Shown here: positions 30,012 through 49,626 of the stretch, piece after piece
Layout of the letters: each line of letters opens with the position of its first letter
How positions within the stretch are numbered: position 1 is the stretch's first letter
Assembly: GCF_028898845.1 (NCBI RefSeq)
Contig: NZ_CP118574.1
Span: 682,001 to 746,000, forward strand
From: Streptomyces sp. WZ-12
Lineage (GTDB): Bacteria; Actinomycetota; Actinomycetes; Streptomycetales; Streptomycetaceae
Direction of reading: 5' to 3'
Length of the DNA: 64,000 nt
The notes under the pieces: model-generated
The model's input: only the letters and a program-made list of their open reading frames with translations
What the model was told of the DNA's origin: nothing
The model's database searches: none
Translations under genes and position numbers: made by a program

Positions 30012-30596
30012 TCAGGACTCCCGCAGCCAGGTCAGGGCGGACTGCTTGATCTCCCGCTCCAGTTCGCTGCCCTTGGTGGCGAAGACGCGGCGTACCGGGA
30101 AGCCGCTCTCCTGGAGGAGGTAGGCCAGCGCCGCGTACTCGCGCGGGTACGCGGCGACGGCTTCGCGGTCGATCTCCACGACGCCTGCGGGGAAGGTGAA
30201 GGAGGCGAAGTCGTAGACGCTCTTGCGGTCGAGGATGCGCCACACCCCGTCCCGGCGCTCCAGTTGGTCGATGAACCGGTTGTGGCTCTGGCAGCCCAGG
30301 CCGATCCGGATGTTCTCGCCGACGATGAGCGCGTTGGTCTCGCTGACCGCGCGCGTCCCGTCCGCGGAGAAGGTCACCACCGGAGCGGTGATCAGGTGCT
30401 TGGACCGCAGGTCGGAGGCGCCCATCTTGGCGGAGGCGTCGACGAATTCGTGGGCCGGGCCCTCGAACCAGGTGATCTCGATCCGCGCCTCCGGATGGAA
30501 CAGGTCCCGGAGCCGGTCCCATTCGCCGAGGTCGCGATGGATCCAGCCGGTCATGAGGTCGGCGATGTCCTGACGGTCCTGAAGCATTGCTGTCAT
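30012..30596 (-). CDS. NTF2/SnoaL-like protein
   Basis: From ATG 30596, with GGAGG upstream, about 194 residues. The first part reads MLQDRQDIADLMTGWIHRDL and GEWDRLRDLFHPEARIEITW, the start of SnoaL-like polyketide cyclase/dehydratase folds. DRKSVYDFASFTFPAG appears further on. The fold is a cone-shaped pocket used by isomerases, cyclases and scytalone dehydratase-like enzymes. It lies downstream of the AraC gene on the same strand, with a second NTF2-like gene in the divergent operon. Enzyme activity cannot be stated. Confidence 0.7.
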   Translation of the reverse strand: MTAMLQDRQDIADLMTGWIHRDLGEWDRLRDLFHPEARIEITWFEGPAHEFVDASAKMGASDLRSKHLITAPVVTFSADGTRAVSETNALIVGENIRIGLGCQSHNRFIDQLERRDGVWRILDRKSVYDFASFTFPAGVVEIDREAVAAYPREYAALAYLLQESGFPVRRVFATKGSELEREIKQSALTWLRES

Positions 30597-30718
30597 GGCA
30601 CCAGCCTCCACCCCCGCGATCGATCGGTCCAATAGGCGGGACCCGGGGGCTCGTTCTCGCCGGCGGGCCGAGGCCGGCGGCGTCTCGGCCTCAACCGAAC
30701 GGAGCGGCGCGGTGAGAG

Positions 30719-30757
30719 CGTTGCCGATGCTGCATTGCCTATGCGGCGTTGCCGATG
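30719..30757. repeat. Short direct repeats GCGTTGCCGATG
   Basis: GCGTTGCCGATG occurs twice, with GCATTGCCTATGC between the copies, just after the AraC stop codon. It may be a protein-binding site or chance. Confidence 0.3.
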
Positions 30758-30759
30758 GG

Positions 30760-31716
30760 TCACTTCTCGCTGTGCGCGGCGCGATAGTCGCCGGGGCTGA
30801 GGCCGTAGGCGGACTTGAAGACGCGGCTGAAGTGGGCCGGGTCGAGAAAGCCCCAGCGGGCTGCGGTCGAGGCCACGGTGCGGCCGGCCGCGAACGAGCC
30901 GGTGAGGTCCCGGCGGCAGCCTTCCAGGCGGCGCTGTCTGATCCAGGCGGTGATGGTGGTCTGCTCCTCGGCGAAGAGCTTTTGCGCGTGGCGCAGGGAG
31001 ATGTGGTGTGCCTTGGCTATCCGCTCCGGCGACAGGTCGGGGTCGCCGAGGTTCTGGTCGATATAGGCGCGGATGCGCAGGAGCGTGCGGCGACGCGTGG
31101 CATGTGCGTCGTCGCGGCTCGGGCGGGTGCACCGCTCGGCGAGCATGGTGGCGAGCAGGTCGCCGGTGGTCTGGGCGAGGCTTTCCGCGCTGTCCATGTA
31201 GTCGCGGAGGTTCTTGGCCAGTCGGGTCAGGAACGGGGAGACCAGGGCGCCGACGCCTTCGGCCGCGGAGAAGCAAGTCGCCGTCACCTCGTCGGTCTGA
31301 CCACTGTCCAGGTGTGCCAGGCGGTGCGGGAGCATGAACTCCAGCATGGAGAAGCTCTCGCGGCACAGGAGCGTGTAGGGGCGCGCGGTGTCGTAGCAGG
31401 CGATGTCGCCGGGGTGTAGCTCGGCTTCCCGACCGTCCTGTTGGATCAGCGCACTGCCGCCCTGGATCACGCCGACGAGCAGGAACTCGGCGTCGGAGCG
31501 GGCGATCAGTCGGGGCGTGCGGTCCACCCGGCTCGGATCGGCCACCACCTCGGCGATCTGGACGGCGCCGAGGCGGTCAGCCTGGATCCGGCCGTGGAAC
31601 GGCTCGTCGGTCAACGGCTTGACGTGGACCGGCACGAAGCTGTCGCAGACCACGTCCTGCCAGAACGCGCGCCGGTCGGCGATCGCGTGGTCTTGGGTCC
31701 GCAGCACCACCGGCAT
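30760..31716 (-). CDS. AraC-family transcriptional regulator
   Basis: From ATG 31716 (MPVVLRTQDHAIADRRAFWQ) the protein has 318 residues. The N-terminal sensor domain of the AraC_binding_2 type runs to about residue 200, with EAELHPGDIACYDTARPYTL. The C-terminal double helix-turn-helix follows (LSPERIAKAHHISLRHAQKL; then WGFLDPAHFSRVFKSAYGLS P). An upstream in-frame start at 31797 is less likely because it crowds the divergent promoter. It is divergent from the hydrolase-NTF2 pair, its probable target. Confidence 0.88.
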   Translation of the reverse strand: MPVVLRTQDHAIADRRAFWQDVVCDSFVPVHVKPLTDEPFHGRIQADRLGAVQIAEVVADPSRVDRTPRLIARSDAEFLLVGVIQGGSALIQQDGREAELHPGDIACYDTARPYTLLCRESFSMLEFMLPHRLAHLDSGQTDEVTATCFSAAEGVGALVSPFLTRLAKNLRDYMDSAESLAQTTGDLLATMLAERCTRPSRDDAHATRRRTLLRIRAYIDQNLGDPDLSPERIAKAHHISLRHAQKLFAEEQTTITAWIRQRRLEGCRRDLTGSFAAGRTVASTAARWGFLDPAHFSRVFKSAYGLSPGDYRAAHSEK

Positions 31717-31834
31717 GGCTCGTTCTCCCGCTTCCGTGCGCGTACCGACAACGGGGTGTGCGCGTGACGGCAATCCGACCGCCTGCTCCCCCGGCATCGT
31801 GAGAGCACCAAGTTAACCCGATGGGAGAACGCGC

Positions 31835-32617
31835 ATGCCCTACGCAGCCGTGAATGGTCAGCAGCTCTACTTCGAAGACAGCGGCGGCGACGGCCCGGTG
31901 GTCGTCTTCAGCCACGGCAACCTGATGGACCGGCGGATGTGGGCGCCGCAAGTCGAGGCGCTGCGCGGCGAGTTCCGGTGTGTGGTGTGGGACGAGCGGC
32001 TGCACGGCCTGTCCAAGGACGACGGCGAGCTGTACACGTACTGGGAATCCGCCGACGATCTGCTCGGTCTGCTCGACCACCTCGGGGTCTCGCGGGCGAC
32101 GCTGGTCGGGCACTCGCAGGGCGGGTTCCTGTCGCTGCGTGCGGCGCTGCTGGCGCCCGAGCGGGTCAGGGCCCTGGTTCTGGTGGACACCGCGGCCGTG
32201 GCCTGGCCGCCGGAGGCGCTGGCGCAGATGAGCGGGGTCAGCGAGGGTTTCCGGGCCGGCGGCCCCGACGCGGTGGCCCTGGTGCTGCTCGACCTGCTAC
32301 TCGGCAGGCCCGGCATCCACGAGGAGTGGCTGCGCGCGTGGCGCGAGCAGCCCCGCGCGCGGCTGGCGGACGCGGTTGCCGTGCTCATGAACGTGGACGA
32401 CATCTCGGGGCGCCTCGGCGAGATCACCGCGCCGGCGCTGATCGTGCACGGCGAACGTGACCAGCCGGTCCCCCTTGCGCTCGGGCAGATGCTCCGCGAC
32501 CAACTGCCCCGGGCCCGGGGCATGATCGTGGTTCCCGGCGCCGGCCATACCCCGAACCTCACGCACCCCGAAGCGGCCAACGGCCCGCTCACCACTTTCC
32601 TGCGGCACCACGCCTGA
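31835..32617 (+). CDS. Alpha/beta hydrolase (haloperoxidase/esterase-like)
   Basis: The 260-residue protein has VVFSHGNLMDRRMWAPQ as oxyanion region, GHSQGG with the nucleophile serine, a DQPVP acid region and the C-terminal GAGHTPNLTHP with the histidine. This is the triad of alpha/beta-hydrolases in the non-haem haloperoxidase/hydrolase group. GGGAGA precedes the ATG. An NTF2-like gene follows 18 bp later, so the two are co-transcribed, and the divergent AraC gene suggests inducible expression. Confidence 0.88.
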   Translation: MPYAAVNGQQLYFEDSGGDGPVVVFSHGNLMDRRMWAPQVEALRGEFRCVVWDERLHGLSKDDGELYTYWESADDLLGLLDHLGVSRATLVGHSQGGFLSLRAALLAPERVRALVLVDTAAVAWPPEALAQMSGVSEGFRAGGPDAVALVLLDLLLGRPGIHEEWLRAWREQPRARLADAVAVLMNVDDISGRLGEITAPALIVHGERDQPVPLALGQMLRDQLPRARGMIVVPGAGHTPNLTHPEAANGPLTTFLRHHA

Positions 32618-32635
32618 GCAGAGAGGAACTCCGAC

Positions 32636-33016
32636 ATGACTGCGCCCACCGACCCGACCGCGCTCCCCTCCGCCTTCCAGGACGCGCTGAACGCCCGCGA
32701 CGTCGATCGGGTCCTCGCGCTCTACTCGCAAAACGCGACGATGCGCACCGTCACCGGCAAGGTGATCAGCGGCTACGCCGCGCTGCGCGAGGAGGTCGAG
32801 CAGACCATCGCCGCCGCCCCGCACATCAGCAACACCACCCGCCACATCATCGCCACCGACGACACCGCCCTGGTGATCGTCGACTGGGCGATGGAGCTGA
32901 ATGCGCCGGACGGCGAGCGCGTCAGGGCGTCGGGCACCACAGCCAACGTGGCGAGCCGCGGACTCGACGGCACCTGGCGGTTCGCCGTGCTCAACCCGAC
33001 CGGCACCGCCTCGTGA
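32636..33016 (+). CDS. NTF2-like protein (DUF4440/SnoaL-type)
   Basis: The 126-residue protein contains AFQDALNARDVDRVLALYSQ, SGYAALREEVEQTIAAAPHI and HIIATDDTALVIVDWAMELN, the helix-then-sheet order of single-domain NTF2 folds. GAGAGG lies before the ATG. It is translated right after the hydrolase gene. Members often act as small-molecule isomerases or binding proteins; here the role is unknown. Confidence 0.75.
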   Translation: MTAPTDPTALPSAFQDALNARDVDRVLALYSQNATMRTVTGKVISGYAALREEVEQTIAAAPHISNTTRHIIATDDTALVIVDWAMELNAPDGERVRASGTTANVASRGLDGTWRFAVLNPTGTAS

Positions 33017-33348: not shown

Positions 33349-33545
33349 CGACGAGCAGCTACACGCAGATCGAGTCGAAGAAGGCCGTGAACGCGCGCGG
33401 CATGAAGTCGCCGGACCGCACCGAGGCCGTGCTGCTCGCCCTGTACGGGCCGGAATCTCCAGGCAAACCGCGCCGCCGTGGCCTCCTCAACTGGCCGTGT
33501 TACAGGTGCTCGAAGAAGCGGGTCCACCACGTCGCTCGGCCCTGA
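33345..33545 (+). pseudogene. Possible phage terminase large-subunit C-terminal remnant
   Basis: A plus frame reads YTQIESKKAVNARGMKSPDR then TEAVLLALYGPES. It resembles the end of phage terminase large subunits, where xIESKxxxxxRGxxSPDxADAxxLAL precedes the C-terminus. It has no start, overlaps the end of a real minus-strand gene, and is weak evidence of an old prophage. Confidence 0.35.
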
Positions 33546-34033
33546 TGCGGGCCATAGCTGATGCAGCAGAACCCTTCGCCGGCGAGCCACGTCGTGCCGT
33601 CGTAGGGCTGGTGCAGCAGTCGTGGGGGAACCACCGTGTAGCCGAGATCGCGTAGGGCAGCCTCGATCCGGCTACGGTCCGCTGTGCTCAGTGCACCCTC
33701 CCGGACGGCATGGTCCAGGTCATCGTGGCTATCGGGCCACGGAGCGGTCACCACCGCCAGGTTGCCGAAGTTGCTCAGCCGCACACTGAGGAGCACGCCC
33801 GCCTCGGTCGCCCCCACTGGCAGGGCGGCTCGGAAGCAGTAACTGGCGTCCTGGACCTGGTCGTCGAGTTCACAAGCACAGCCGAAGTCTTTGGACAGCC
33901 GCTCTTTGAGCCGGAGCGCTTGCGACTTCGCCAACGGATAGTTGAACCCGTCGGGAAACTCCAGGTGGTCGGGGCCAGGCAACTGGTCCAGAGCGTGGAG
34001 CAGTGCCAGGACCTGCGCGTCGTTGTCCATCAC
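33500..34033 (-). CDS. Hypothetical protein
   Basis: The 177-residue protein starts at ATG 34033 or 34030. Its sequence (QVLALLHALDQLPGPDHLEF; AKSQALRLKERLSKDFGCAC; VLLSVRLSNFGNLAVVTAPW; GYTVVPPRLLHQPYDGTTW) has the mixture of acidic helices and strands seen in small immunity-like or SUKH-type proteins. No family can be assigned. It has no signal peptide. Its neighbours are remnants, so context gives no hint. Confidence 0.6.
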   Translation of the reverse strand: MMDNDAQVLALLHALDQLPGPDHLEFPDGFNYPLAKSQALRLKERLSKDFGCACELDDQVQDASYCFRAALPVGATEAGVLLSVRLSNFGNLAVVTAPWPDSHDDLDHAVREGALSTADRSRIEAALRDLGYTVVPPRLLHQPYDGTTWLAGEGFCCISYGPHQGRATWWTRFFEHL

Positions 34034-34502: not shown

Positions 34503-35525
34503 TCAGGGATGACAGTGTTCCGGCTCGGCCTTGTGGCCGATGACCAGATGCTTGTCGCTGTGAGACCTGTGTGTCTCACAGTGCCTGAATCCTGCCGCCG
34601 TGAGGAGTGCGATGTATTCGTCTGCCGTGCGGTGACGCCCTTGAGTCTCCAGATGCATGGTCAGGTTCATTGCCGAGGTTGCGAGGGGGCCCTGCCTGGA
34701 TTCGTCGAAGAGCCGGTCCATGACGAGCACCCGCCCGTGGTCGCGGCACGCCCGGTGTGCCTTGCTCAGGAGTTGGACACAAGCGTCATCGGGCCAGTCC
34801 GAGAGGATGTACCCGAAGGCGATGCAGTCGCCTTCGGGCAGTTCGTCGGTGAAGAAGTCGCCTGGGAGGAAGGTGAGTCGGTCACCTAGCCCATGGGCGG
34901 CGCGGGTCTCCTTGAGATGCGGTTCGACTTCAGGAAGGTCGAACACGGTTGCCCGGAGCCTGGGCGAGTGCTGGAGCGCGGCGACTGCGAACGGCCCGTT
35001 GGCGCCCCCCACGTCGATCAAGTGGGCGGTGGTGGCCAGTCCGGCGAGGGCAGCGAGTTCTTTGGACGGGGCAAAGCTGAGGTCCCACATGGCCTTCAGG
35101 AAACGGCCAGTGGCGTGGTCATCTCGGTACAGGGAGGTGAACGGCCGGGGGTCGGATCCGTCCACCGTGCGCTTGCCGTGCTGGAGGTAGGAGTCCAGGA
35201 GGGCCATCCTGCCCGCTGTTTCTTGGACGAGGTGGGCAATGAACCCTCCGATGTAGCGGTCGCTGTCCGGATCAACGAAGGGCCGGATGTCGTCCGGAAG
35301 GCTGTACTGGCCCCCGGGGGTGCGTTGGATGATCTCGAATGCGGTCAGGACCAGCAGCATCCGTTCCGTGGTTTCCGGGTCGATGCGGAGGTCCTTCGCG
35401 ATGTCGTCTGCTACTGCAGGTCCGTTCGCTACCAGGTGGGTGAAAACCTGGTAGCGGTCGGCCAAGTACAGGACCGGCGTTGAGATTGCGCCGAACATGA
35501 CCTTCTCCAAGTTGCCTGGCAACAT
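34503..35525 (-). CDS. SAM-dependent O-methyltransferase-like protein 2 (last gene of the operon)
   Basis: The 340-residue protein is of the acetylserotonin/caffeate O-methyltransferase type (Methyltransf_2). It has an N-terminal winged-helix dimerisation region (LYLADRYQVFTHLVANGPAV), the SAM glycine loop LIDVGGANGPFAVAAL near residue 170, and the acidic and proline-rich core FDLPEVEPHL. The catalytic-base region has ILSDWPDD where family members usually have LHDWxD, so the histidine is replaced by Ser. That may alter or abolish base catalysis, or shift it to another nucleophile. GGGAGG precedes the start. It follows the alpha/beta hydrolase by 70 bp, and its stop codon overlaps a TCCCTG/CAGGGA hairpin. 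The substrate is probably phenolic, by family analogy. Confidence 0.85.
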   Translation of the reverse strand: MLPGNLEKVMFGAISTPVLYLADRYQVFTHLVANGPAVADDIAKDLRIDPETTERMLLVLTAFEIIQRTPGGQYSLPDDIRPFVDPDSDRYIGGFIAHLVQETAGRMALLDSYLQHGKRTVDGSDPRPFTSLYRDDHATGRFLKAMWDLSFAPSKELAALAGLATTAHLIDVGGANGPFAVAALQHSPRLRATVFDLPEVEPHLKETRAAHGLGDRLTFLPGDFFTDELPEGDCIAFGYILSDWPDDACVQLLSKAHRACRDHGRVLVMDRLFDESRQGPLATSAMNLTMHLETQGRHRTADEYIALLTAAGFRHCETHRSHSDKHLVIGHKAEPEHCHP

Positions 35526-35595
35526 GGCGGTCCTCCCTGTCGTTGTGATGTGTCTGGCCTGCCGCAGTCCGTGTCGCCGATGGCCTGGACACGTG

Positions 35596-36348
35596 TCAGC
35601 CCCCGTTCAGGGCTGCTGCCTGCTCTACGAGCGCGGCGAGGTCCTGTGGATGGGTGACGTGCGCGATGTGACCAGCACCGTCGATGGACGCGTGGTGGCC
35701 GGCGGGGATCAGGTTCGCAAGATGACGCGCGGTCTGTCGGTGATGTGTCAGCGACCGGCTTCCCGACGCCGTGATCACAGGTGTCGTTACCGTCGTCGGG
35801 TCGAAGGTGGGGATGTTGAGCGTGGGGTCGGTCATCTCCTGGATCAGGGCTGTGCCGGCCGCTTCCAGTTCCTCGTCCGTCTGTCCTGAGGTGGGGCGGC
35901 CGACGACGGCCTCTTGGAGGGCTCGGGCTGCGGCGGCTGGGCCCTGAGCTGATGCGTCTTCGACCAGTTGCTCCCACGGGGCGGTGTCGGGCCACCAGGG
36001 CAGCCAGCAGACGGGCGGCTCGAAGAGCACAACCGCCCTTGCGAATCGGGGTTGTTGGGCTGCTGCGGTGAGTGCCACGAGTGCGCCGTAGCTGTGTCCT
36101 GCCACGACGGGCCTCGGCAGTCTGGAGGCCGCGGAGATGAGATCGGTGACATGGTCGGCCAGTTTGGTTTGCGGGTCTGCGAGGGCGCGGGAGGTGCCCC
36201 ATCCGCGCCGGTCGTACCCGGCGACGGTCCATCGGGGCAGGTGCGCTGCGACTCGCTGGAAGGTCGCGCTGTGGTCCATCGTCCCGTGGACGAACAGAGC
36301 CGTCTCGGGTCGTGTTCCTTTTCTCGTGCGGAGTACTGGACGGATCAT
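35596..36348 (-). CDS. Alpha/beta hydrolase, candidate releasing thioesterase
   Basis: The 250-residue protein has HGTMDHSATFQ as oxyanion loop, RRGWG, the nucleophile in VAGHSYGALVAL and a C-terminal GAGHIAHVTHP for the histidine. Its ATG overlaps the TGA of the P450-NRPS gene (ATGA), so the two proteins are made together in matched amounts. In nikkomycin biosynthesis a separate thioesterase frees beta-hydroxyhistidine from its carrier; this hydrolase could do the same here. The sequence alone does not distinguish a thioesterase from an esterase. Confidence 0.85.
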   Translation of the reverse strand: MIRPVLRTRKGTRPETALFVHGTMDHSATFQRVAAHLPRWTVAGYDRRGWGTSRALADPQTKLADHVTDLISAASRLPRPVVAGHSYGALVALTAAAQQPRFARAVVLFEPPVCWLPWWPDTAPWEQLVEDASAQGPAAAARALQEAVVGRPTSGQTDEELEAAGTALIQEMTDPTLNIPTFDPTTVTTPVITASGSRSLTHHRQTARHLANLIPAGHHASIDGAGHIAHVTHPQDLAALVEQAAALNGG

Positions 36349-39300
36349 TTCGGTGCCCCGGCGTTGAGGAGAAGGGTGGTGATCTGCTCCGGTGTGGGGG
36401 CGGTGATCAGAGCGGCAGTGTCCACGGGTGCGCCTGCCAGTGATTCCAGACGGGCGAGGAAGGCTGCCATGGTGATGGAGTCGCCACCTGCGGTGAAGAA
36501 GTCGGAGTCTGCTTGGACTTGGCGTAACGGGACGTTGAGGACCTGGGCGAAGTTCTGGGCGACCTCCCAGGTGATGCGGGAGAGAGACCTTTCATGGTCG
36601 TCGGGTAGGAGTGCGGGCCCAGCGGGGCGAGAGGACTGGACAGTGAGCTCGCTGGGGGGCTCGTGTCGGTGGTCGGCTTTGCCGTTCACGGTGCGCGGGA
36701 GCTCGGTGACGGCGGTGAACACGGAGGGCAGCATGGCGCTGTGCAGGCGGGAGGCCAGGTAAGTGCGGATTGCCGTCTCGTCGAGTTGGGCACCGACGGG
36801 GACGGCCAGCGCTTCGATGCGGCCGTCTTGCTCGTATACGGCGCACGCGGTGACGCCGGGGGCGGACTCCAGGACACGCTCGACCTCGTCGAGTTCGACG
36901 CGTTGACCGCGGATCTTGACTTGGCGGTCGCGACGGCCGACGTATTCGAGTGTGCCGTCCGGGCGCTGACGGCAGATGTCACCGGTGCGGTAGAGCAGGC
37001 TTGCCGGATCGGTTGTGGTGTGGGGGTTGCGGATGAAGCGCTCTTCCATGAGGTCCGGTTGGTTCAGGTACCTTCCGACACCGATACCTCCGAGCCAGAG
37101 TTCCCCCTTCTGCCCAGGCGGGACGTCGCGTAGGTGGTGGTCCAGGAGATAGGCGCGTTTGTTGGCTACCGGTCGGCCGATGGGCGGGGGGTCCTCGCTC
37201 GGGGAGCATTCATGCCAGGTTGCCAGGACGGCGGTCTCGGCTGGACCGTAAAGGTTGAGAAGGCGTCGCCCCGGTGCGGCCCACCGGCGGGCCCATGCTG
37301 CCGGCAGCCGCTCGCCCGCGGCAGCGGCGATGCGCAGTTCGGGCAGGGGCTGGTCCGGAAGGGTCATCCAGACGGACGGGGTGAGGATTGCGGTGGTGAC
37401 CCGCTGCGATGCGAGCAGCCGGACCAGTGGGGGGCCGACGGTGAGCTGGTGGGACGGCGCGACAACCAAGGCGGCGCCTGACAGGAGGGCAAGGGTGAGG
37501 TCGGCGATACAGCCGTCGAAGTTCGGTGACAGGAACTGCAGGACCCGGTCGCGGGGTTCGAGGTCGAAGATCTGGCGCTGCGCCAGGTGGAGATTGACCG
37601 TGGCCTCGTGGCTGATCGCGATGGCCTTCGGGGCACCGGTACTGCCGCTGGTGAAGACGACGTAGGCGGTATCGCCGGGCGAGACTCCGGTGAGCGGGGC
37701 GTCCGGGCGGAAGCCTTGCGCACCTACGCCGACCACCCGGACGGGGAACGCTGAGGAAGGGAGACTGCCGTCGGTCACAACAAGGCGCGCCTCGGCCTCG
37801 ACGAGCATGGTCCGCAGGCGCTCACGGGGGCAAGAGATGTCCGCGAGCAGGAACGCGGCGCCAGTCTTTGCGACCGCCAGCACAGTGAGGACGAACTCCA
37901 CGGAGCGTTCCATGACGATGCCGACCAACGTGCCCGGCTGGGCCCCTTGGTGTCGCAGCCGATGGGCCAGGGCGTTGGCCCAGTGGTCGAGTTCGCGGTA
38001 GCTGATCAGGTCATCCGGCCCCTGTACCGCTGGTGCATCGGGTGTCAGTAGGGCTTGCCGTTCGAACACCTCGTGCCAGCAGGCTGCCGCTGTGGTGGTG
38101 GTCGGAGGCAGACCGAGGCCGTTGCCGCCGGTGCTGTCGTGGGTTTCGGCCGCTGGTATGTCGACGGTGGCTTCCGGTGTGGCTCCGGCATCGACTCGGA
38201 CGCGTGCGCGTTCAAGGCAGCGAGTGTTCCCATGCAGGCCCCAGGAGAACGCTTGCGGCTCCGATTCCGGTGCGTAGGAGGGGTATTTGGCCAGAAAGCC
38301 TTCAACTGCGAATCCGGCGAGGCGTTCGGCATAGCCTGCGCCGGGGCAGGCGTGGCGTCCGCTGCCGAAGCCGAGGTGCTTGGGGCCGTGCCGGGTCAGG
38401 TCCAGGGCACGGGGCGCGCTGAAGGTCCGGGGGTCGAGGTTGGCAGCGGCCAGGTGGACCAGGACACTCTCGCCTCCTGTGATCAGCGTTCCCTGGATTC
38501 TCACGTCGGTCGTGGCCTTGCGCGCGACGTACTGGCTTGACCCGTTGATCCGCATGAACTCTGCGACGGCTGGCGGGATGAGCTCGGGCAACTCGCGCAG
38601 CCGCTTCTCCAGGATCGGGTCGTCATGCAGGGCCAGCAGAGCCGAGGTGACAAGGTGGGTCAGGGTCTGGTAGCCGCCGCCCACAAGGACGATGCAGTTC
38701 GCCGCAACAGCGAACAGTTCTTTGCCAGTTGGCGAGCGGTCGGCCAGCAGGGCGGTCAGTGAGCTGATCACGTCGTCGCCGGGCGCGTGCAGTCGGCTTC
38801 TCGCTTCGTTCTGCAGCACTGAGAGGGCATCGGTCAGGACCGCGTCCACCTCGCGGTCCGGGGCAGCCGGTAGCGCAGACAGGCTGCCCAGCAGCCGCTC
38901 GTAGGCTTCGGCCCACCGGGTGAGTTCTGCTTCCCTTCCCGGCATGCCCAGTAACTGGGCCACCAGCGCACTGGGGAGCTTCGCTGCGAAGTCCGCCACC
39001 AGATCGAGGACACCCGTGCGAGGCAGCTCCTCAAGGGCGCGGGCGGCGATGTGCCGCAGGTCGTTCTCGCGGCTCCTCACGCGAGTGCCGGTGAACTGTT
39101 CGGCCAAGGCTGACCGGATGGCCTTGTGCTGTGGCGGATCCATGAAGAGCATCTGCTCGTGCACCATGGTGCTCAGGCTGGCGGAGGCGTGCAGGCCCAG
39201 CTCCTGAAACGCATCCTGGTCGTGCTCGCGCACGGAGGAGAATGTCCGGTGGTCGCGCAGGATCTCAACCGCCTCGGCGTAGCCGGAGCACACCCACATG

Positions 39301-39446
39301 CCCCCGACCTCGTCGAAAAACAGCGGACCGAGCTCGGCAATGGCGTCGATGTAGACGGACGGATCGGCGATGACTTCGGGAGTTCTGAGCAGGTGAACTC
39401 CATGCCTGGCACGGTCGTATCCGGCAGGGCGCTCACGCAGGCGCAT
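36345..39446 (-). CDS. Cytochrome P450 / NRPS adenylation / carrier fusion protein
   Basis: One 1033-residue frame holds three domains. P450, about 1-415: ExxR as EFMR (296-299) and the haem loop FGSGRHACPG (360-369) with ligand Cys367. Its I-helix reads GGGYQTLTH (256-264), with Gln260 where most P450s have Glu or Asp. Adenylation, about 455-930: VVFTSGSTGAPKA (596-608), NLYGPAET (731-738), YRTGD (819-823) and Lys923 in VNGKADH. Carrier: FFTAGGDS with Ser990 for phosphopantetheine. No condensation or thioesterase domain is present. The ten specificity positions read D644 G645 A648 S691 A708 A710 L732 V740 L741 K923, unassigned. Codon 974 is TTA. By analogy with NovH/NovI and NikP1/NikQ, cis-oxidation of a tethered amino acid is inferred. 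GAGAGGA precedes ATG 39446. Confidence 0.92.
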   Translation of the reverse strand: MRLRERPAGYDRARHGVHLLRTPEVIADPSVYIDAIAELGPLFFDEVGGMWVCSGYAEAVEILRDHRTFSSVREHDQDAFQELGLHASASLSTMVHEQMLFMDPPQHKAIRSALAEQFTGTRVRSRENDLRHIAARALEELPRTGVLDLVADFAAKLPSALVAQLLGMPGREAELTRWAEAYERLLGSLSALPAAPDREVDAVLTDALSVLQNEARSRLHAPGDDVISSLTALLADRSPTGKELFAVAANCIVLVGGGYQTLTHLVTSALLALHDDPILEKRLRELPELIPPAVAEFMRINGSSQYVARKATTDVRIQGTLITGGESVLVHLAAANLDPRTFSAPRALDLTRHGPKHLGFGSGRHACPGAGYAERLAGFAVEGFLAKYPSYAPESEPQAFSWGLHGNTRCLERARVRVDAGATPEATVDIPAAETHDSTGGNGLGLPPTTTTAAACWHEVFERQALLTPDAPAVQGPDDLISYRELDHWANALAHRLRHQGAQPGTLVGIVMERSVEFVLTVLAVAKTGAAFLLADISCPRERLRTMLVEAEARLVVTDGSLPSSAFPVRVVGVGAQGFRPDAPLTGVSPGDTAYVVFTSGSTGAPKAIAISHEATVNLHLAQRQIFDLEPRDRVLQFLSPNFDGCIADLTLALLSGAALVVAPSHQLTVGPPLVRLLASQRVTTAILTPSVWMTLPDQPLPELRIAAAAGERLPAAWARRWAAPGRRLLNLYGPAETAVLATWHECSPSEDPPPIGRPVANKRAYLLDHHLRDVPPGQKGELWLGGIGVGRYLNQPDLMEERFIRNPHTTTDPASLLYRTGDICRQRPDGTLEYVGRRDRQVKIRGQRVELDEVERVLESAPGVTACAVYEQDGRIEALAVPVGAQLDETAIRTYLASRLHSAMLPSVFTAVTELPRTVNGKADHRHEPPSELTVQSSRPAGPALLPDDHERSLSRITWEVAQNFAQVLNVPLRQVQADSDFFTAGGDSITMAAFLARLESLAGAPVDTAALITAPTPEQITTLLLNAGAPK

Positions 39447-39523
39447 GGGATCCTCTCAGGTGAGTTGGTTCGTGGCTTGGGGACGCTGCCGCTTCGGGAA
39501 ACACTTCGGGCACGCAGGCGTGG

Positions 39524-40567
39524 TCAGCTGACGTGGCCGACGACCACGCCGTTGGCGCCCGCGGCCTTGAGGGGCAGGACCTCCACGCGGGCGAAGCCTG
39601 CCTCCAGCAGCCAGTTGTGGTATTCCGCAGCCGAGTAGTTCTTGCCGCCCTCGGTCTCCACCAGCATGTTCATCCCCATCAAGGCCGCAGCCGGTGGGCC
39701 GGTACGCTCGTCGTTGAGCAGGAGCTCGCAGATCAGCACGGCGCCGTCTGGGGGGAGAGCGGTCCGGCACTTGCGCAGCAGCGCCCGGCCGTTCTCTTCA
39801 TCCCAGTCGTGAAGAATCATGCTCAGGATGATGGTGTCGTAGCCGCGGGGCAGTTCGGGGTCACGGATGAAGTCGCCGGCGACCGTATCGACGGTTTCGT
39901 TCATTTTGGCGTCGGTGATCTTCTGGCGCGCCAGGTCACACACGTGTGGCAATTCGAAGACCGTCGCGCTCAAGTTGCCGAAGTGACGGCACAGTTCGAT
40001 GGGGAAGGCGCCGGCGCCGCCACCCACGTCCAACAGTCGAGTGTGCCGGGTGAAGTCATAGGCCGTGGCGAGCGCACGCGCCGTGAAGGTGGAGATGGAA
40101 TACATGCAGTCCCAGAACAGCTGCAGCGTCTCTGAGTCTTCGGTGTCAAAGAGCGACTCCTGCGTGCCCGGGGTCCAGGTGAGGGGACGGTTTGTCCGGA
40201 GAGCCTGGACGATGGACTGCCAGGCCGGGTACTCCCGGCGATCCAGGTAGCGGACGAACCCGCCGAAGTAGTAAGGCCGCCCCTCGACCAGGTACTCCTC
40301 CGAGAGTTCCGAATTCCGGTACCGGGAACCGGACTTGTTCAGCAGGCCCAACGATGCGCAGCCGGCCAGGAGCAGGTCGGCAGGGCGGTCAGCTATCCCC
40401 AGCTCGCCCGACACCTCTTCCATGGTCATCTCGCGCCCTCCGGCCAGCAGATTGAACAGGCCGACATCAATGGCGCCCGCATAGGTTTTGAAGCTCCAGA
40501 ATCCCGTGGCGAGCTGCATGAGAGGGGTGGGCAGCAGTGGTGTGGCGTCTTTGTGCGGTTGCTTCAT
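39524..40567 (-). CDS. SAM-dependent O-methyltransferase-like protein 1
   Basis: From ATG 40567 (AGGAG upstream) the protein has 347 residues. The dimerisation helix region (ATGFWSFKTYAGAIDVGLFN) is followed by the SAM motif LLDVGGGAGAFPIELC near residue 180 and FELPHVCDLA. SMILHDWDEENG contains the conserved histidine of the catalytic base in this family. So, unlike the second methyltransferase of the operon, it has the full active-site set. Acetylserotonin/caffeate-type enzymes methylate phenolic hydroxyls; homologues also include C- and N-methylating variants. The gene lies 76 bp after the lyase gene and 77 bp before the P450-NRPS gene. Confidence 0.88.
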   Translation of the reverse strand: MKQPHKDATPLLPTPLMQLATGFWSFKTYAGAIDVGLFNLLAGGREMTMEEVSGELGIADRPADLLLAGCASLGLLNKSGSRYRNSELSEEYLVEGRPYYFGGFVRYLDRREYPAWQSIVQALRTNRPLTWTPGTQESLFDTEDSETLQLFWDCMYSISTFTARALATAYDFTRHTRLLDVGGGAGAFPIELCRHFGNLSATVFELPHVCDLARQKITDAKMNETVDTVAGDFIRDPELPRGYDTIILSMILHDWDEENGRALLRKCRTALPPDGAVLICELLLNDERTGPPAAALMGMNMLVETEGGKNYSAAEYHNWLLEAGFARVEVLPLKAAGANGVVVGHVS

Positions 40568-40643
40568 GGCAAGCTCCTGGTGAGACGTGGAGGGGCGAGT
40601 TTCCTCACTCGTCCCTGATCGGTTCTGCGGGGTACTTCGCGAC

Positions 40644-42083
40644 TTAGCCGAAGAGCGGTTCGCTCGATAGCGGCCGGAACCGGGATTGGAAGAAGCGCAG
40701 CGTTTCAGGTTCGTAGGCGAACTCCACGCCCGAACGCAGCTCCGCTCGCTGCCTGTACAGCCGGATGACGCTGTCGGCCACCACATCCATGTGGCTCTGC
40801 GTGTAGGCGCGACGCGGGATGGTGAGCCGGACCAGTTCGAGGCGCGGATACCGGTTCTCGCCCGTCACCGGGTCGCGCCCGGCCGACACCGCTCCCCGCT
40901 CAGTGGACCTGATCCCGGCATCGAGGTAGAGCGCACACGTCAACGTCTGTGCGGGAAACTGCTCGTGGGGAACGCCCGGCAGGAAAGCGGATGCGTCGAG
41001 GAACACGGCGTGCCCGCCCACCGGGCGTACGATCGGCACGCCCGCCGCAGCGATCCGGTCCGCTAGGTAGGCCACCTGCTGGACGCGGGTGCGGATGCTG
41101 TCCTCCTGTACGGACTCCTCAATGCCTTGCGCCGTCGCTTCCAGGTCACGGCCGGCCATCCCGCCGTAGGTGTGCAGTCCCTCGTAGACAACGACCAGGT
41201 TGCGGGCCTGCTCCGCGAGTGCGGGATCGCGCACAGCAAGCCAGCCGCCGATATTGGCGAAGCTGTCTTTCTTCGCCGACATCGTGGCGCCGTCGGTCAG
41301 CGCGCACATCTCCCGCAGGATGTCGGCCACCGAGCGCCCGCTCCAGCCCGGCTCACGCTGCTTGATGAACCAGGCGTTCTCCACTGCCCTCGCCGCGTCG
41401 AGCATGACCGGAATCCGGTAGCGACGGGTGAGTTCACGGACCTCCGAAAGGTTGGCCATACTGATGGGCTGGCCTCCGGCCATGTTCACCGTCGCGGCCA
41501 AGGAAACGTACGGGACCTGCTCGGCCCCCACCTTGTCGATGAGCCGCTCCAGTTTGGCGAGATCGACATTCCCCTTGAACGGCAAGTCCGCGCCCGGGTC
41601 GTGGGCCTCGTCGATGATGATGTCGTGGAAGGTCCCGCCGTTGAGCTCCTGGTGCTGGCGCGTGGTGGTGAAGTACATGTTTCCCGGAATGTGATGACCC
41701 GGTCGAATAAGGCAGCGCGAAAGCAAGTTCTCCGCTGCCCGCCCCTGGTGGGCAGGTATCACGTGCTCATAGCCGTAGTAGTCACGCACCGCCGCCTCGA
41801 AGCGGTAATAGCTCCGCGAGCCCGCATATGACTCGTCACCAAGCATCACGGCAGCCCACTGCCGGTCCGACATCGCACTGGTCCCCGAGTCGGTGTAAAG
41901 GTCGATGTACACCAACTCCGCCGGTAGCAGGCCCACGTTGTAGCCGGCTGCCGAGAGAGCTGCCCTGCGCTCCTCGACACTTGTGAGTCGAATGAACTCG
42001 ATGCTCTTCACCCGCCAGGGCTCCGCCGGATGCCGGGCCCCTGCCGTGGCACCCGTGGACTCTGCGTTACCTGACTCGCTCAT
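40644..42083 (-). CDS. Tyrosine phenol-lyase-type PLP enzyme
   Basis: The 479-residue protein aligns along its length with tyrosine phenol-lyase (beta-eliminating lyase family): IDLYTDSGTSAMSDRQWAAV, HQGRAAENLL, GNMYFTTTRQHQ, SLAATVNMAGGQPISMAN. The PLP lysine lies in MSAKKDSF (probably Lys272). GIRSTERG holds Arg396, matching the arginine of SMERG in tyrosine phenol-lyase, which is Ile in tryptophanases (AVEIG). VRLTIPRR (Arg419) binds the substrate carboxylate. A 25-residue N-terminal extension precedes the core. Known enzymes reversibly split tyrosine into phenol, pyruvate and ammonia, and can build tyrosine analogues from phenols. As first gene of the operon it could supply or cleave an aromatic amino acid; the direction is open. 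Confidence 0.88.
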   Translation of the reverse strand: MSESGNAESTGATAGARHPAEPWRVKSIEFIRLTSVEERRAALSAAGYNVGLLPAELVYIDLYTDSGTSAMSDRQWAAVMLGDESYAGSRSYYRFEAAVRDYYGYEHVIPAHQGRAAENLLSRCLIRPGHHIPGNMYFTTTRQHQELNGGTFHDIIIDEAHDPGADLPFKGNVDLAKLERLIDKVGAEQVPYVSLAATVNMAGGQPISMANLSEVRELTRRYRIPVMLDAARAVENAWFIKQREPGWSGRSVADILREMCALTDGATMSAKKDSFANIGGWLAVRDPALAEQARNLVVVYEGLHTYGGMAGRDLEATAQGIEESVQEDSIRTRVQQVAYLADRIAAAGVPIVRPVGGHAVFLDASAFLPGVPHEQFPAQTLTCALYLDAGIRSTERGAVSAGRDPVTGENRYPRLELVRLTIPRRAYTQSHMDVVADSVIRLYRQRAELRSGVEFAYEPETLRFFQSRFRPLSSEPLFG

Positions 42084-43019: not shown

Positions 43020-43730
43020 ATGAAACGCATCAGCGCACCGCGGCGGACGGCCAGCCTGTCCGCCCAGCTCGTGGAGAACCTCCGCTCGCACATCGAGACA
43101 GGGGGTTGGCCGGTCGGGACGCGGATTCCGCCGGAGCAGGTCCTCATCGAGGAGCTCGGGGTCGGACGCAGCACGCTGCGGGAGGCGATCGGTGCGCTGG
43201 TGCACCTCGGTCTGCTGGAGCCCAGAGCCGGTGACGGCACCTACGTCCGCTCCTCCAGCGAGCTCCAGTCGGTCATGGTGCGGCGGGCAGGCTCCGCGAA
43301 GCGGGACGACGTGCTGGAGCTGCGGACCGTTCTGGAGGAGTACGCCTCGGGCGCCGCGGCCCTTCGGCGCAGCGAGGAGCAGGTGCGGCAGCTGCGGGAG
43401 TTGCTGACCGACGCCGAAGCAGCCGTCGCCGGCGAGGACGCGTCCGCGGCCACCGGCGTCGACGCGCTCTTCCACCGGTCCGTCGTCCGGGCGAGCGGGA
43501 ACGACCTGCTGATCGAGGTGTACGACTACCTCGGCACGGCGCTCACCTCGCACCTGGGGGGCCTGCCCTGGGACGCCGCCCACGCCGAGGAGCACGCCGG
43601 CCTGCACCGGCGGCTCGTCGAGGCGATCGAGGCCCGGGACGCGGGCGGCGCCCGCGACGCCGCGGCGGCGATCGTCCGGCTCACCCACGACCACGAAACC
43701 GCCGACGCACGCGCGGCGGAGGACCAGTGA
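43020..43730 (+). CDS. GntR-family regulator, FadR subfamily
   Basis: The 236-residue protein has an N-terminal winged helix (LVENLRSHIETGGWPVGTRI; EQVLIEELGVGRSTLREAIG) and a C-terminal all-helical FCD domain (LELRTVLEEYASGAAALRRS) with the metal-type residues D and H (VDALFHRSVVRASGN; EHAGLHRRLVEAI). FadR-type proteins sense carboxylic acids. Its position upstream of the carboxylic acid reductase on the same strand suggests it reads the acid substrate or product of that enzyme. Confidence 0.9.
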   Translation: MKRISAPRRTASLSAQLVENLRSHIETGGWPVGTRIPPEQVLIEELGVGRSTLREAIGALVHLGLLEPRAGDGTYVRSSSELQSVMVRRAGSAKRDDVLELRTVLEEYASGAAALRRSEEQVRQLRELLTDAEAAVAGEDASAATGVDALFHRSVVRASGNDLLIEVYDYLGTALTSHLGGLPWDAAHAEEHAGLHRRLVEAIEARDAGGARDAAAAIVRLTHDHETADARAAEDQ

Positions 43731-43888
43731 GCCCGCAGCCGACCCCGGTGTCCCGCCGGTGCTCCGCCGCCGGGTCGCCGGCCGCCGACGGCGCCCGGCC
43801 CGCCGGGTCCGCCGGACTCGTCATCGCCGCGGCGCTCGCCCGCCACGGCGCGGGCCGGGATCGCCGCCTACGTCAGCCCTCCCACTGA
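43727..43888 (+). CDS. Short ORF overlapping the GntR stop, reality uncertain
   Basis: GTG 43727 overlaps the GntR stop (GTGA) and opens a 53-residue frame with a stretch like AGSAGLVIAAALARHGAG. It could be the remains of a transporter or oxidoreductase start, or just a high-GC open frame. No family is recognised. Confidence 0.2.
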   Translation: MSPQPTPVSRRCSAAGSPAADGARPAGSAGLVIAAALARHGAGRDRRLRQPSH

Positions 43889-43983
43889 TCCGATCGCCCC
43901 CGCCCGAACGCCAACGCCGCCTGCCTGAACGGGCTTTCACCGCCGCAAAGGATCAACCCACCAACAACGTAAGGAGATCACTC

Positions 43984-46900
43984 GTGTCTCGCTCCCCCCT
44001 CCCCATCGACGAGCTCGACGCACGTACCGACCGACGAAGCGCCCGCCTGTACGCGACCGACGCCCAGTTCCGTGACACTGCGCCCCTGGACGCCGTCACC
44101 GAGGCGATCGGGCGCCCCGGATTACCGCTCGCCGATCTGTTGGCCACCGTGATGGAGGCGTACGCGGACCGCCCCGCCCTGGGCGAGCGTGCCACGGAGC
44201 CGGTCACCGACCCTGAGACGGGCCGCACCACGCTGCGCCTTCTGCAACGGTTCGACACGCTCACCTACGGCGAACTCTGGGAGCGGGTGGGCGCGGTGGC
44301 CTCCGAATGGCGGCACCACCCCGAACATGCGGTGGGCCCCGGCGACTTCGTCGCCGTCCTCGGTCCCACGAGCGCCGAATACACCGTGGCGGATCTGGCC
44401 TGTGTCCGCTCCGGCGTGGTGTCCGTTCCCCTGCAGTCGGGGGCTTCGGCGGCACACCTTGCCCCCATCGTCGAGCAGACCGGACCGCGCCTGCTCGTGG
44501 TGGACGTCGATCACCTGGACGTCGCGATCGAGGTTGCGGCGAACGCCCCCTCGCTGGGCAGGATCGTCGTCATCGGCCACCGGCCCGAGGCCACCGCCCA
44601 CCAGGAGGAGTTGGAGTCCGCGCGTGCCCAACTCGCGGCGCAGGGCCGGGGAGTGGCCCTGGACACGCTGGCGTCGGTCGTCGACCGGGGAAGGGCGCTG
44701 CCGCCGCTCCCCCGGGTTCCCGACGGGTCGGCGGCCGACGCGCTCAGTGCGCTGATCTACACCTCGGGAAGTACCGGCACCCCCAAGGGGGCCATCTACA
44801 CCGAGCGTCTGGTCAGACAGTTCTGGGTCGACTTCGTGCCCGGCCAGGTGGTGCGGCCCTCCATCGTGCTCAACTACCTGCCGTTGAGTCACATGATGGG
44901 CAGGGGCGTGCTGTTCGGGACGCTCGCCAAGGGGGGCCTCGCCTGTTTCGCGGCGTCCAGCGACCTGTCGACGCTCTTCGAGGACCTCTCCCTGGTCCGT
45001 CCCACCGAGTTCGTCATGGTTCCCCGCATCTCCGACATGCTCTTCCAGCACTACCGGGCGGAGTTGTCCCGCCGGACCGGGACGGGCGGCGATGCGGCCG
45101 AGTTGGCGGAGCAGGTGAGGGAGGAGCTGCGGGAGAAGGTCATGGGCGGCCGCCTCCTGTCGGCCGTCAGCGCCTCGGCTCCGCCGAGCGCCGAGACGAC
45201 GGCGTTCATCGAGGACTGCTTCCACGTCAGGCTGCTCGACGGCTACGGGTCGACGGAAGGCGGGATCGTCTCCCTCGACGGCCGGGTGCTGCGCCCGCCG
45301 GTGACCGACCACAAGCTGGCCGACGTACCCGAGTTGGGATACTTCGGAACCGACTCGCCGTACCCGAGAGGCGAACTGCTGATCAGGTCCGACCGGCTCG
45401 TGCCCGGGTACTTCCGGCGTCCGAACGCCACCTCCGAGGTCTTCGACGAGGACGGCTTCTACCGCACGGGCGACATCATGGCCCGCGTCGGCCCCGACGA
45501 ACTGAGGTACGTCGACCGCCGCTCCAACGTCCTCAAGCTGTCACAGGGCGAATTCGTCGCCGTCTCCCGCCTGGAGGCGCTCTTCACCGGCAGTCCGGTC
45601 ATCCGGCAGATCTTCCTGTACGGCAGCAGCGCCCGCGCCTACCTGCTCGCGGTCGTCGTGCCGACGCAGGACGCCCTCGACCGCGTCGACGGGGATGCCC
45701 GGCGTCTCAGGCCGATCCTGCGGGAGTCCCTGCGGAAGCTCGCCGCCGAGGCGGGGCTGAACTCCTACGAGATTCCGCGGGAACTCCTCGTCGAGACCGA
45801 GCCGTTCACTCAGGAGAACGGGCTGCTCTCCGGGGTGCGCAAGCCGTTGCGGCCGGCCCTGACGAAGCGCTACGGCGAGCGTCTCGAAGCGCTGTACACC
45901 GAGTTGACCGACCGTGCGGCCGAAGAACTTCGGACGCTGCGTCAGTTCGGCGGCGACCAGCCGGTACCGGCGACCGTGCTGCGGGCCGCGCAGGCGCTTC
46001 TCGGGCAGGAAGCGGGCGTCGTGGAGCCTGGCGCACGCTTCCTCGAACTCGGCGGCGACAGCCTCACGGCACTGTCGTTCTCCCAGCTGCTGAAGGGGAT
46101 TTTCCACGTCGACATCCCCGTCGACGTGATCACCAACCCGGTCAACTCGCTGCAACAGGTGGCCGATCACATCGAGCGGGCGCTCGCGTCGGAACACCGC
46201 CGTCCCACCGCCGACAGCGTCCACGGCCCGGACGCGACGCGACTCGACGCGGCCGAGCTGCGGCTGGACGCGTTCCTCGACGCGCGGACCATCGAGCAGG
46301 CCGAAAGGCCGGCCGGTCCGCTGCCCGAGGCCCGGACCATCCTGCTGACCGGCGCCAACGGCTACCTGGGCCGCTTCCTGTGCCTGGAGTGGTTGGAGCG
46401 CGCGGCGGAGCGCGGCGGCACACTGGTGTGCGTGGTCCGCGGCTCCTCCGCCGAGTCAGCCCGGGCACGGCTCGACGCGGCCTTCGACAGCGGCGACCCC
46501 GAACTCACGGAGCGCTACCGCACGTCCGCCGCCCAGCATCTCCAGGTGGTCGCCGGCGACATCGGGGAACCCCGCCTCGGGCTCGACGAGGAGACCTGGC
46601 AACGGCTGGCCGACACCGTGGACCTGATCGTCCACCCGGCGGCACTGGTCAACCATGTCCTGCCCTACGGCCAGTTGTTCGGCCCCAACGTGCTGGGCAC
46701 GGCCGAACTGATCAGGCTCGCGGCCACCTCCCGGATCAAGCAGTTCACCTACCTGTCGACGGTCGCCGTCGTCTTCGGGAACGCGGCAGCGGCCGACGAG
46801 TCGGCGGACATCCGCACCGCCTGCGGGGCACGCGACCTCGACGGTGATTACGCCGACGGTTACGCGGCCAGCAAATGGGCCGGCGAGGTGCTGCTGCGCG

Positions 46901-47514: not shown

Positions 47515-47640
47515 CACAACCCGTGACCGCCGCGGGGCCCACCACCACCGGCTCCGCGACGGCCGGGAGAGTCGGTCAGACCACCCGGAAGACCCGTCGA
47601 AGGCGACCGACAGGGCGGGCGCGTTCTCGACGGGACGGGA

Positions 47641-49185: not shown

Positions 49186-49221
49186 GATGAAGTGTTCGTC
49201 CTTACGGGGAGGGGCAGTTGG

Positions 49222-49626
49222 TCACTTTCCGGAGAGGTGCCGGTGAACGCACTGCGTGTACTGCTGGAGGCTGTCGGGCCGGTAGCACTCCTGCGTCTTG
49301 TTCGCGTACCAGATGAAGAAGACGGCGGCCAGGCCGGACATCACGAGCGCGAGCGATGACGCCACCACGGCGGTGACGGCCTTGCCCCGGCCGGCGCCGG
49401 TTCGCCTGGCCGTCATCAGGGCGGCGATGCCCAGGATCAGGCCGATCACCCCGAGCGGGCCGCCGATGACGACCACCGACGTGAGCAGGCCGGTGCTGCC
49501 CACAACCACGGCTGCCACGGCCAGGCCGTTCTTGGCGGTCGGTGCCGGCGCCGACACCGGCCCGTTCCGCGCGGTCCCAACCGGTGCCGCAGGATGCGAT
49601 GTCATCCCCGTTGCTTGCGTGTTCAT
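49222..49626 (-). CDS. DUF4190-like membrane protein
   Basis: From ATG 49626 (AAGGA upstream) the protein has 134 residues: a proline/alanine-rich cytoplasmic start, then NGLAVAAVVVGSTGLLTSVV and GVIGLILGIAALMTARRTGA, the DUF4190 pattern of two membrane segments around a small loop. A third segment (VVASSLALVMSGLAAVFFIW) is followed by a short tail with a cysteine pair (ECYRPDS and QCVHRH). The role is unknown. It runs into the S33 peptidase gene. Confidence 0.75.
   Translation of the reverse strand: MNTQATGMTSHPAAPVGTARNGPVSAPAPTAKNGLAVAAVVVGSTGLLTSVVVIGGPLGVIGLILGIAALMTARRTGAGRGKAVTAVVASSLALVMSGLAAVFFIWYANKTQECYRPDSLQQYTQCVHRHLSGK

Follow-up and report, generated by a model that had tools for sequence, protein, structure and literature searches.

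The window analyzed here, a stretch of 64,000 nucleotides from Streptomyces sp. WZ-12, carries on its minus strand (34503 to 42083) five genes that probably encode a self-contained pathway leading from tyrosine via L-DOPA, 3-methoxytyrosine and guaiacol to veratrole. The conversion of guaiacol to veratrole is the least certain step. The reactions and product identities, as well as the order of carrier release and methylation by the second O-methyltransferase (OMT2), are deduced from what was observed, i.e., gene content, conservation, residues and neighbors.

Organization of the Gene Set

All five reading frames are open at the coordinates given by the initial annotation, and Pfam analysis agrees with the protein classes named there. 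These are a tyrosine phenol-lyase (TPL)-type PLP enzyme (Beta_elim_lyase, PF01212; 40644..42083), two O-methyltransferase-like proteins, both Methyltransf_2 with a Dimerisation domain (OMT1, adjoining TPL, at 39524..40567 and OMT2 at 34503..35525), a 1033-residue P450-A-PCP protein (p450, AMP-binding, AMP-binding_C and PP-binding; 36345..39446) and an alpha/beta hydrolase (Abhydrolase; 35596..36348) with a GHSYG nucleophile motif and kinship to the hydrolases of bosamycin-type clusters. The fusion and hydrolase genes share the previously described ATGA overlap, located at 36345-36348, while the remaining intergenic gaps measure 76, 77 and 70 nt. The ribosome sites reported earlier are likewise reflected in purine-rich stretches seen by eye ahead of OMT1, the fusion and OMT2. 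For OMT1 the most likely start is 40567 (MKQPHKD...) rather than 40786, since its relatives align from there or from a few residues later; the longer version from 40786 overlaps the TPL gene. Promoter and terminator scans gave no excess over shuffled sequence.

The Tyrosine Phenol-Lyase and Its Pocket

The TPL aligns near full length to the C. freundii enzyme (2ez1) and shares its catalytic residues, retaining Y71, R100, T124, N185, D214, R217, K257, R381, R404 and F448 (C. freundii numbering). T124, R381 and F448 rule out a tryptophanase; in all 18 weaker Streptomyces loci examined (L014-L031, 43-48% identity) position 124 is occupied by D or E. The score against TIGR02618 (696.5 bits) lies below the equivalog cut-off of 720.7, while the PRK13238 subfamily cut-off is passed, and the protein is thus described as a TPL-clade enzyme and not as an equivalog. 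Judging from its residues, it should work like a TPL.

The pocket differs from the classical one in that F36 and M379 are replaced by G36 and T379. Among the 120 listed of 8000 TPL-family matches, F36G and M379T were found together in seven of seven TPL clusters of at least 82% identity, and they recur at loci L001-L003 (partly the same sequences) and L037. Such a pocket would suit the release of a ring-substituted phenol, which speaks against the modified amino acid or aldehyde that the initial annotation had envisaged as the end product. According to the accessible part of a study of C. freundii TPL altered at the same position 379 (M379A and M379V), the M379A enzyme shows a more than 100-fold lower kcat/KM for tyrosine, is poor on DOPA and accepts 3-methoxytyrosine with a kcat/KM below that for 3-fluorotyrosine; its synthetic yield was highest with guaiacol, and in an LDH assay bulky 3-substituted tyrosines were inactive with the wild-type enzyme (PMC9262865). 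Those mutants were engineered, whereas F36G and M379T in the window are natural. As a point against the analogy, the window has Thr at residue 379 where the engineered enzymes have Ala or Val, and the accessible part of that study makes no mention of F36 (PMC9262865).

The P450-A-PCP Fusion, the Hydrolase and the Methyltransferases

As read originally, the fusion holds its three domains in one frame: a P450 domain (residues 1-410; 38217..39446) with the heme-Cys motif GFGSGRHACPG, an adenylation domain recognized by profile match (residues 455-927; 36666..38084) with the code DGAIAALVLK, and a peptidyl carrier domain (residues 962-1025; 36372..36563) with GGDS. The P450 cysteine motif, the A-domain lysine and the PCP serine are all intact, and in a protein search with 120 of 181 matches listed, the best 74 clusters all had the three Pfam domains in a single protein. 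The fusion is therefore a genuine single gene, and an assembly artefact joining two genes is ruled out. In the NovH/NovI system, by contrast, the P450 and A-T proteins are separate. The fusion is 52% identical to P0036 of S. aurantiacus, which is probably DbmF, as judged by the species label and the neighbors of close relatives and not by accession. The A-domain codes (DGSIAALVWK in P0036) are equal at 8 of 10 positions, placed according to GrsA numbering. Compared alone with the PDB, the P450 domain gave no clear functional relative among the 60 of 402 matches listed, and the ring position proposed for its hydroxylation is deduced from a known relative with which it shares about 52% identity.

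As a point against the proposed pathway, OMT2 is without the usual catalytic His, carrying SDW in place of HDW, and its relatives that accompany a fusion and a hydrolase (the three together are hereafter the trio) likewise have SDW or SNW. OMT1 keeps HDW, the motif typical of O-methyltransferases, and its PDB relatives include SibL, RedM and hydroxyindole O-methyltransferase. Proteins resembling OMT1 with 58-66% identity occur widely, especially in Micromonospora, so that a fixed link between OMT1 and TPL need not exist; a second OMT1 relative (46%) is located elsewhere in one genome carrying the cassette. In four natural fusions (P0039, P0051, P0052 and P0055), a hydrolase relative of 49-51% identity forms the C-terminus of the P450-A-PCP protein.

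In the proposed pathway, the fusion would activate L-tyrosine, keep it carrier-bound and hydroxylate the ring beside the phenol hydroxyl, the hydrolase would release L-DOPA from the carrier, and OMT2 would methylate the new 3-hydroxyl of DOPA to give 3-methoxytyrosine. The open-pocket TPL would cut the latter into guaiacol, pyruvate and ammonia, and OMT1 would convert guaiacol to veratrole. TPL chemistry requires a free 4-hydroxyl, which must therefore stay free until the TPL step. Plants form guaiacol and veratrole via salicylate and catechol. The plant route shares the proposed end product, formed by O-methylation, whereas the route proposed for the window would start from tyrosine and obtain its phenol from a C-C lyase.

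Recurrence and Relation to Known Clusters

A cluster comparison recovered the complete set in identical order at four further loci (L001, L002, L003 and L037), and the association is thus beyond chance. Eight of the ten pairs among the five loci have no common flanking DNA; the window and L001 have 202 bp in common immediately before the TPL gene, and a single 506-bp stretch is shared by L002 and L037, in flanks that outside the window are mostly <10 kb. The pathway probably moves horizontally. A GntR gene and a carboxylic acid reductase gene beside the set were rejected as pathway members, because tblastn found neither in the flanks of L001-L003 and L037, where four other window neighbors were equally without a match. 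Among plasmid records, the P450-A-PCP protein had no match and the TPL matches were all <60% identical.

The initial annotation regarded the combination as unfamiliar, and this stands in part: the literature matches listed, with most subscription papers outside scope, include no cluster naming all five genes, whereas fusion, hydrolase and OMT together are already known from bosamycin-type clusters, and the fusion architecture alone is not new. In the accessible part of the bosamycin/depsibosamycin report, bsmF-bsmG-bsmH and dbmF-dbmG-dbmH encode P450-A-PCP, hydrolase and OMT in the same order as in the window and are assigned to 5-methoxytyrosine (= 3-methoxytyrosine), the depsibosamycin cluster having been expressed in S. 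lividans (PMC8303602). In bosamycin-type clusters the product feeds an NRPS with MbtH; none was seen in the five-gene loci, where TPL and a second O-methyltransferase are found instead and are, by sequence, the additions over the known module. Three trio-only loci (L038-L040) carry a fusion, a hydrolase and an OMT2-type gene with 49-51%, 50-52% and 56-57% identity to those of the window, and in each of them an MbtH motif directly precedes the fusion; further A domains are located upstream in L038 and L040, and the L039 contig ends there. That the bosamycin-type module makes methoxytyrosine argues for ring hydroxylation of tyrosine and not for beta-hydroxylation. The earlier scheme of loading of an aromatic amino acid, oxidation in cis, methylation and release is by homology probably correct for tyrosine, with the hydrolase acting in release, except for beta-hydroxylation, since the closest module, as far as the report is accessible, places the oxygen on the ring (PMC8303602).

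Among the literature matches listed for veratrole in Streptomyces or for a TPL-guaiacol cluster, no matching pathway was found. Three candidates were set aside on the accessible parts of the papers: veratrole is a synthesis reagent in PMC3869313, the product in PMC10953824 is a methoxyphenol-oxime and not guaiacol, and the TPL-like domain proposed to form phenol in PMC12669078 belongs to a different protein, a Streptomyces PKS. PMC6390333 likewise contributed nothing to the question. The accessible parts of volatile studies list anisole, 4-methoxystyrene and 2-pentylfuran for S. albulus NJZJSA2 and four other dominant volatiles for a different S. albulus strain, and do not name veratrole for either, which counts against the proposed end product.

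Neighbors of Other Tyrosine Phenol-Lyases

In the TPL tree, 65 open-pocket sequences, some present as both protein and locus, form one clade with support of 1.0. Loci L070 and L086 retain a TPL (S36/A379) and an OMT1 relative, and the trio is replaced by a heme-dependent tyrosine hydroxylase homologue and a Methyltransf_3 (COMT-type) gene. The L070 homologue matches the heme-dependent L-tyrosine hydroxylase 7kqr (E 2.5e-28) and has its relative in L086; it stands where the step from tyrosine to DOPA is expected, is absent from the window and differs in protein family from the P450-A-PCP route. At L087, a V36/V379 TPL occurs with a flavin halogenase, an A-PCP protein and a thioesterase. The presence of unrelated tyrosine 3-modifying genes beside TPLs of the same clade supports the proposed pathway.

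At fourteen loci with F36/M379 TPLs, the tblastn queries were the trio, OMT1, the halogenase and the hydroxylase with its Methyltransf_3 companion, the L087 thioesterase not being among them, and no partner was found except one P450 match in L097 (31.7% identity, about 8 kb from TPL). Pfam analysis of 20 of the 42 neighboring ORFs, from 11 of the 14 loci, gave no methyltransferase, P450, A domain or halogenase; two of the 20 had no Pfam family, and the longest ORF was among the 22 left out. Some flanks are short in total (L090, 3.8 kb; L093, 7.8 kb; L089, 9.0 kb), and the neighbors of L098 are unreliable because ORF prediction chose the wrong strand where TPL lies. Ring-modifying partners occur at 8/8 open-pocket against 0/14 classical loci (Fisher p 3e-6, descriptive only), a contrast which counts the L097 P450 as no partner, is partly circular in that the queries were drawn from open-pocket loci, and is not phylogenetically independent, the open pockets being one clade. 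It is conceivable, with chances slightly short of even, that the actinobacterial open-pocket clade provides a general phenol-release step that can be combined with any of several exchangeable modules modifying tyrosine at position 3 (P450-A-PCP, a heme tyrosine hydroxylase with COMT, or carrier-bound halogenation) and would yield ortho-substituted volatile phenols and anisoles (e.g., guaiacol, veratrole and 2-halophenols) directly from tyrosine.

Alternative Explanations

The same enzymes might act in another order, with DOPA released, TPL forming catechol and both methyltransferases producing guaiacol and veratrole. The gene content would be identical, and wild-type TPL, which is used for L-DOPA synthesis, handles DOPA. 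We consider this order unlikely, as the behavior of M379A TPL toward DOPA and 3-methoxytyrosine, in the accessible part of the study, points the other way (PMC9262865). In addition, OMT2 relatives accompany the fusion and hydrolase at L038-L040 and L043 without an adjacent TPL, and three of these four genomes have no TPL match (E<=1e-30), G280 having only a distant one (43%) elsewhere; the substrate of OMT2 is thus probably upstream of TPL. Methyltransf_2 also takes in ring C-methyltransferases, and SibL, one of the PDB relatives of OMT1, is a C-methyltransferase. If OMT1 or OMT2 acted in this way, the product would be a methylated guaiacol or cresol instead of veratrole; in view of the HDW motif of OMT1 and of the O-methyl product of the known trio, as given in the accessible part of the report, this is about as improbable as the catechol order (PMC8303602).

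A little less probable still is that the trio makes 3-methoxytyrosine for a peptide assembled elsewhere in the genome, TPL being a salvage or synthetic-direction enzyme. The trio does feed an NRPS in bosamycin-type clusters, and many other A domains exist in the host genome. However, no MbtH motif was found in the window, L001-L003 or L037, nor any further NRPS-type A domain in the examined flanks of the five loci, the sole match being a weak one inside the carboxylic acid reductase neighboring the set in the window. Moreover, the amino acid would be broken down by any TPL expressed alongside the trio, and TPL, with its specialized pocket, is present at 5/5 loci. The initial suggestion was beta-hydroxylation on the carrier, as with NovI/NikQ, with a modified amino acid or an aldehyde as the outcome, and P450s acting on A-PCP-bound aromatic amino acids are indeed established for this reaction. 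It appears very unlikely here, as the closest characterized relatives give a ring-oxygenated tyrosine, according to the accessible part of the report (PMC8303602), and other open-pocket TPLs have as neighbor either a halogenase or a homologue of a ring 3-hydroxylase.

Implications

If the proposed pathway is true, it would show at the level of genes how bacteria can turn tyrosine into guaiacol and veratrole, and TPL could be biosynthetic rather than degradative. Evolution would have widened the TPL pocket at the position picked by enzyme engineers, and the open-pocket TPLs would be natural candidates for the enzymatic synthesis of 3-substituted tyrosines. The halogenase locus L087 may be one possible origin of the halophenol and haloanisole volatiles of actinomycetes.

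Organization and Distribution of the Cassette

The row of five minus-strand genes with an ATGA overlap described in the initial annotation is present as open reading frames occupying 34503-42083. In order of transcription they encode a tyrosine phenol-lyase (TPL) relative (40644-42083), an O-methyltransferase (OMT1; 39524-40567), a P450-A-PCP fusion (36345-39446), an alpha/beta hydrolase starting at the overlap (35596-36348) and a second O-methyltransferase (OMT2; 34503-35525), with intergenic gaps of 76, 77, -4 and 70 nt. Their third-position GC is 0.75-0.82, against 0.88-0.95 in the adjoining genes at 30012-33016 and 43020-49644, but 0.81 in gene 33500-34033. The genome (9.55 Mb) comprises two contigs, the main one carrying the window at a distance of about 0.7 Mb from an end; this position and the GC contrast are consistent with horizontal gain of the cassette. 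Divergent from it, on the plus strand (43020-47514), the gene of an FCD-type GntR regulator precedes that of a complete carboxylic acid reductase (1736.7 bits to NF041592); neither was found beside the cassette in the four other loci.

The comparison across actinobacterial genomes proposed in that annotation revealed the five genes, in identical order, at four other loci, with per-gene identities of 93-97% (L001), 70-86% (L002), 72-87% (L003) and 84-92% (L037). The cassette is a discrete unit; flanking DNA is shared in only two of the ten pairs of cassette loci (202 bp upstream of TPL between the window and L001, and a single 506-bp stretch between L002 and L037). It is also rare. At E<=1e-130, relatives of the fusion occurred in 5 of 295 Streptomyces genomes (two full cassettes, three with only the trio of fusion, hydrolase and OMT2), 2 of 394 genomes of the class (both full) and 2 of 250 genomes of one family (one full, one trio-only), the window's genome and genome G621 entering more than one of these counts. 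Protein lists suggest further candidate carriers: Streptomyces sp. NPDC057654 is listed for all three of the cassette genes searched, and S. axinellae, S. kanamyceticus and S. lunalinharesii each for two, with the entries of a given species coming from contigs of equal length.

Predicted Route from Tyrosine

The initial annotation did not recognize the gene combination from any characterized pathway. The P450-A-PCP fusion itself is already known: one study describes the P450-A-PCP protein DbmF, the alpha/beta hydrolase DbmG and the O-methyltransferase DbmH as counterparts of bsmF-G-H, with S. lividans as expression host for the dbm cluster (PMC8303602). The chemistry of this trio is thus established, being the module assigned to 5-methoxytyrosine (equivalent to 3-methoxytyrosine) in the bosamycin and depsibosamycin clusters. 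The five-gene pathway as a whole was not found described in the literature searched. P0036 of S. aurantiacus shares 52% identity with the window fusion and is probably DbmF, since its identity to the fusions at the bosamycin-type loci L038-L040 is 79-84%; at these loci the fusion is immediately preceded by an MbtH motif and followed by hydrolase and OMT2-type genes. The adenylation-domain codes of P0036 and the window fusion differ at 2 of 10 positions. Four natural fusions (P0039, P0051, P0052, P0055) carry an extra C-terminal hydrolase domain, 49-51% identical to the window hydrolase, which ties the latter to the fusion and suggests that it catalyzes release. OMT1 keeps the HDW motif, which reads SDW or SNW in OMT2 and the OMT2 relatives of the trio. 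We consider it very likely that the trio makes 3-methoxytyrosine.

Aligned with C. freundii TPL (2ez1), the window TPL retains the catalytic residues and carries G36 and T379, as do L001-L003 and L037. Both residues occur in all seven protein clusters at >=82% identity among the matches listed, which the L001-L003 sequences partly repeat. Among the best 120 of 8000 family matches, 62 have F36 and M379, 58 have neither and none is mixed. According to PMC9262865, residue 379 touches the substrate; M379A cuts tyrosine kcat/KM by a factor of over 100, performs poorly with DOPA and accepts 3-methoxytyrosine, guaiacol being its top synthetic yield, while the wild type was inactive on bulky 3-substituted tyrosines in an LDH assay. 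The mutants of that paper do not include Thr at 379, and F36 is not mentioned in it. Given these preferences, OMT2 would methylate before TPL acts, and TPL would probably yield guaiacol.

OMT1 relatives stand beside TPL in loci with the trio or a tyrosine hydroxylase homologue, while tblastn found none in the halogenase locus L087; the OMT1 substrate is thus most likely the phenol freed by TPL. In the simplest reading OMT1 would convert guaiacol to veratrole. This is the weakest step, because OMT1-like proteins are common in other actinobacteria, and the case for veratrole as product is evenly balanced. Anisole, which would be the TPL and methyltransferase product of unmodified tyrosine, is attributed to S. 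albulus in PMC4598592, which cites Wu et al. (2015). According to PMC9570658, S. albulus NJZJSA2 gives 4-methoxystyrene and 2-pentylfuran, and another S. albulus strain four different dominant volatiles.

Open-Pocket TPLs and Their Neighborhoods

Around the F36/M379 TPLs of 14 loci, tblastn with the tested partners gave no match except one P450 about 8 kb away (L097). From 11 such loci 42 neighboring ORFs were listed, and the 20 of them that were scanned included no methyltransferase, P450, adenylation enzyme or halogenase. At L093 (3126-5933) the TPL is in tandem with a tryptophanase-like paralogue (D124, V381, H448). TPL-like stretches of 31-33% identity (G103:C2:229648-230712, G175:C78:275837-276862, G161:C5:26427-27461) sit inside open frames of 7,500-8,100 aa and are probably PKS-embedded domains (cf. 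PDB 9cen, 'Polyketide Synthase Protein').

Open-pocket TPLs, lacking F36/M379, also occur with other partners. In L070 (6395-12012) and L086 (6752-10471), a heme tyrosine hydroxylase homologue and a Methyltransf_3 gene, not the trio, precede a TPL with S36/A379 and a relative of OMT1 (48% identical in L070, 51% in L086). The L070 hydroxylase homologue matches heme-dependent L-tyrosine hydroxylase 7kqr (E 2.5e-28), that of L086 is 41% identical to the L070 protein over 186 residues, and the PDB relatives of Methyltransf_3 include catechol and caffeoyl-CoA O-methyltransferases. The trio and this unrelated gene pair may therefore lead to the same predicted intermediate. A NUDIX gene, by eye resembling IPP isomerase, follows the L070 set. 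A further candidate set comes from S. zhihengii, for which P0129, a TPL with S36/A379, and the OMT1-like P0296 are both listed from 618214-base contigs, the latter labelled plasmid. At L087 (9422-14906 of G883:C20), a thioesterase, A-PCP and flavin-dependent halogenase precede on one strand a TPL with V36/V379 and P at 124, which looks like a predicted pathway from tyrosine in which 3-halotyrosine is cut to 2-halophenol.

An open-pocket clade with swappable upstream modules was not found described in the literature searched. In our tree, the 65 open-pocket sequences, which include some repeats, group in a single clade (support 1.0), and classical TPLs fall outside. Within this sample, the single clade suggests just one change of the pocket, and its differing neighbors (eight loci read, three kinds of neighborhood) suggest an exchange of upstream modules.
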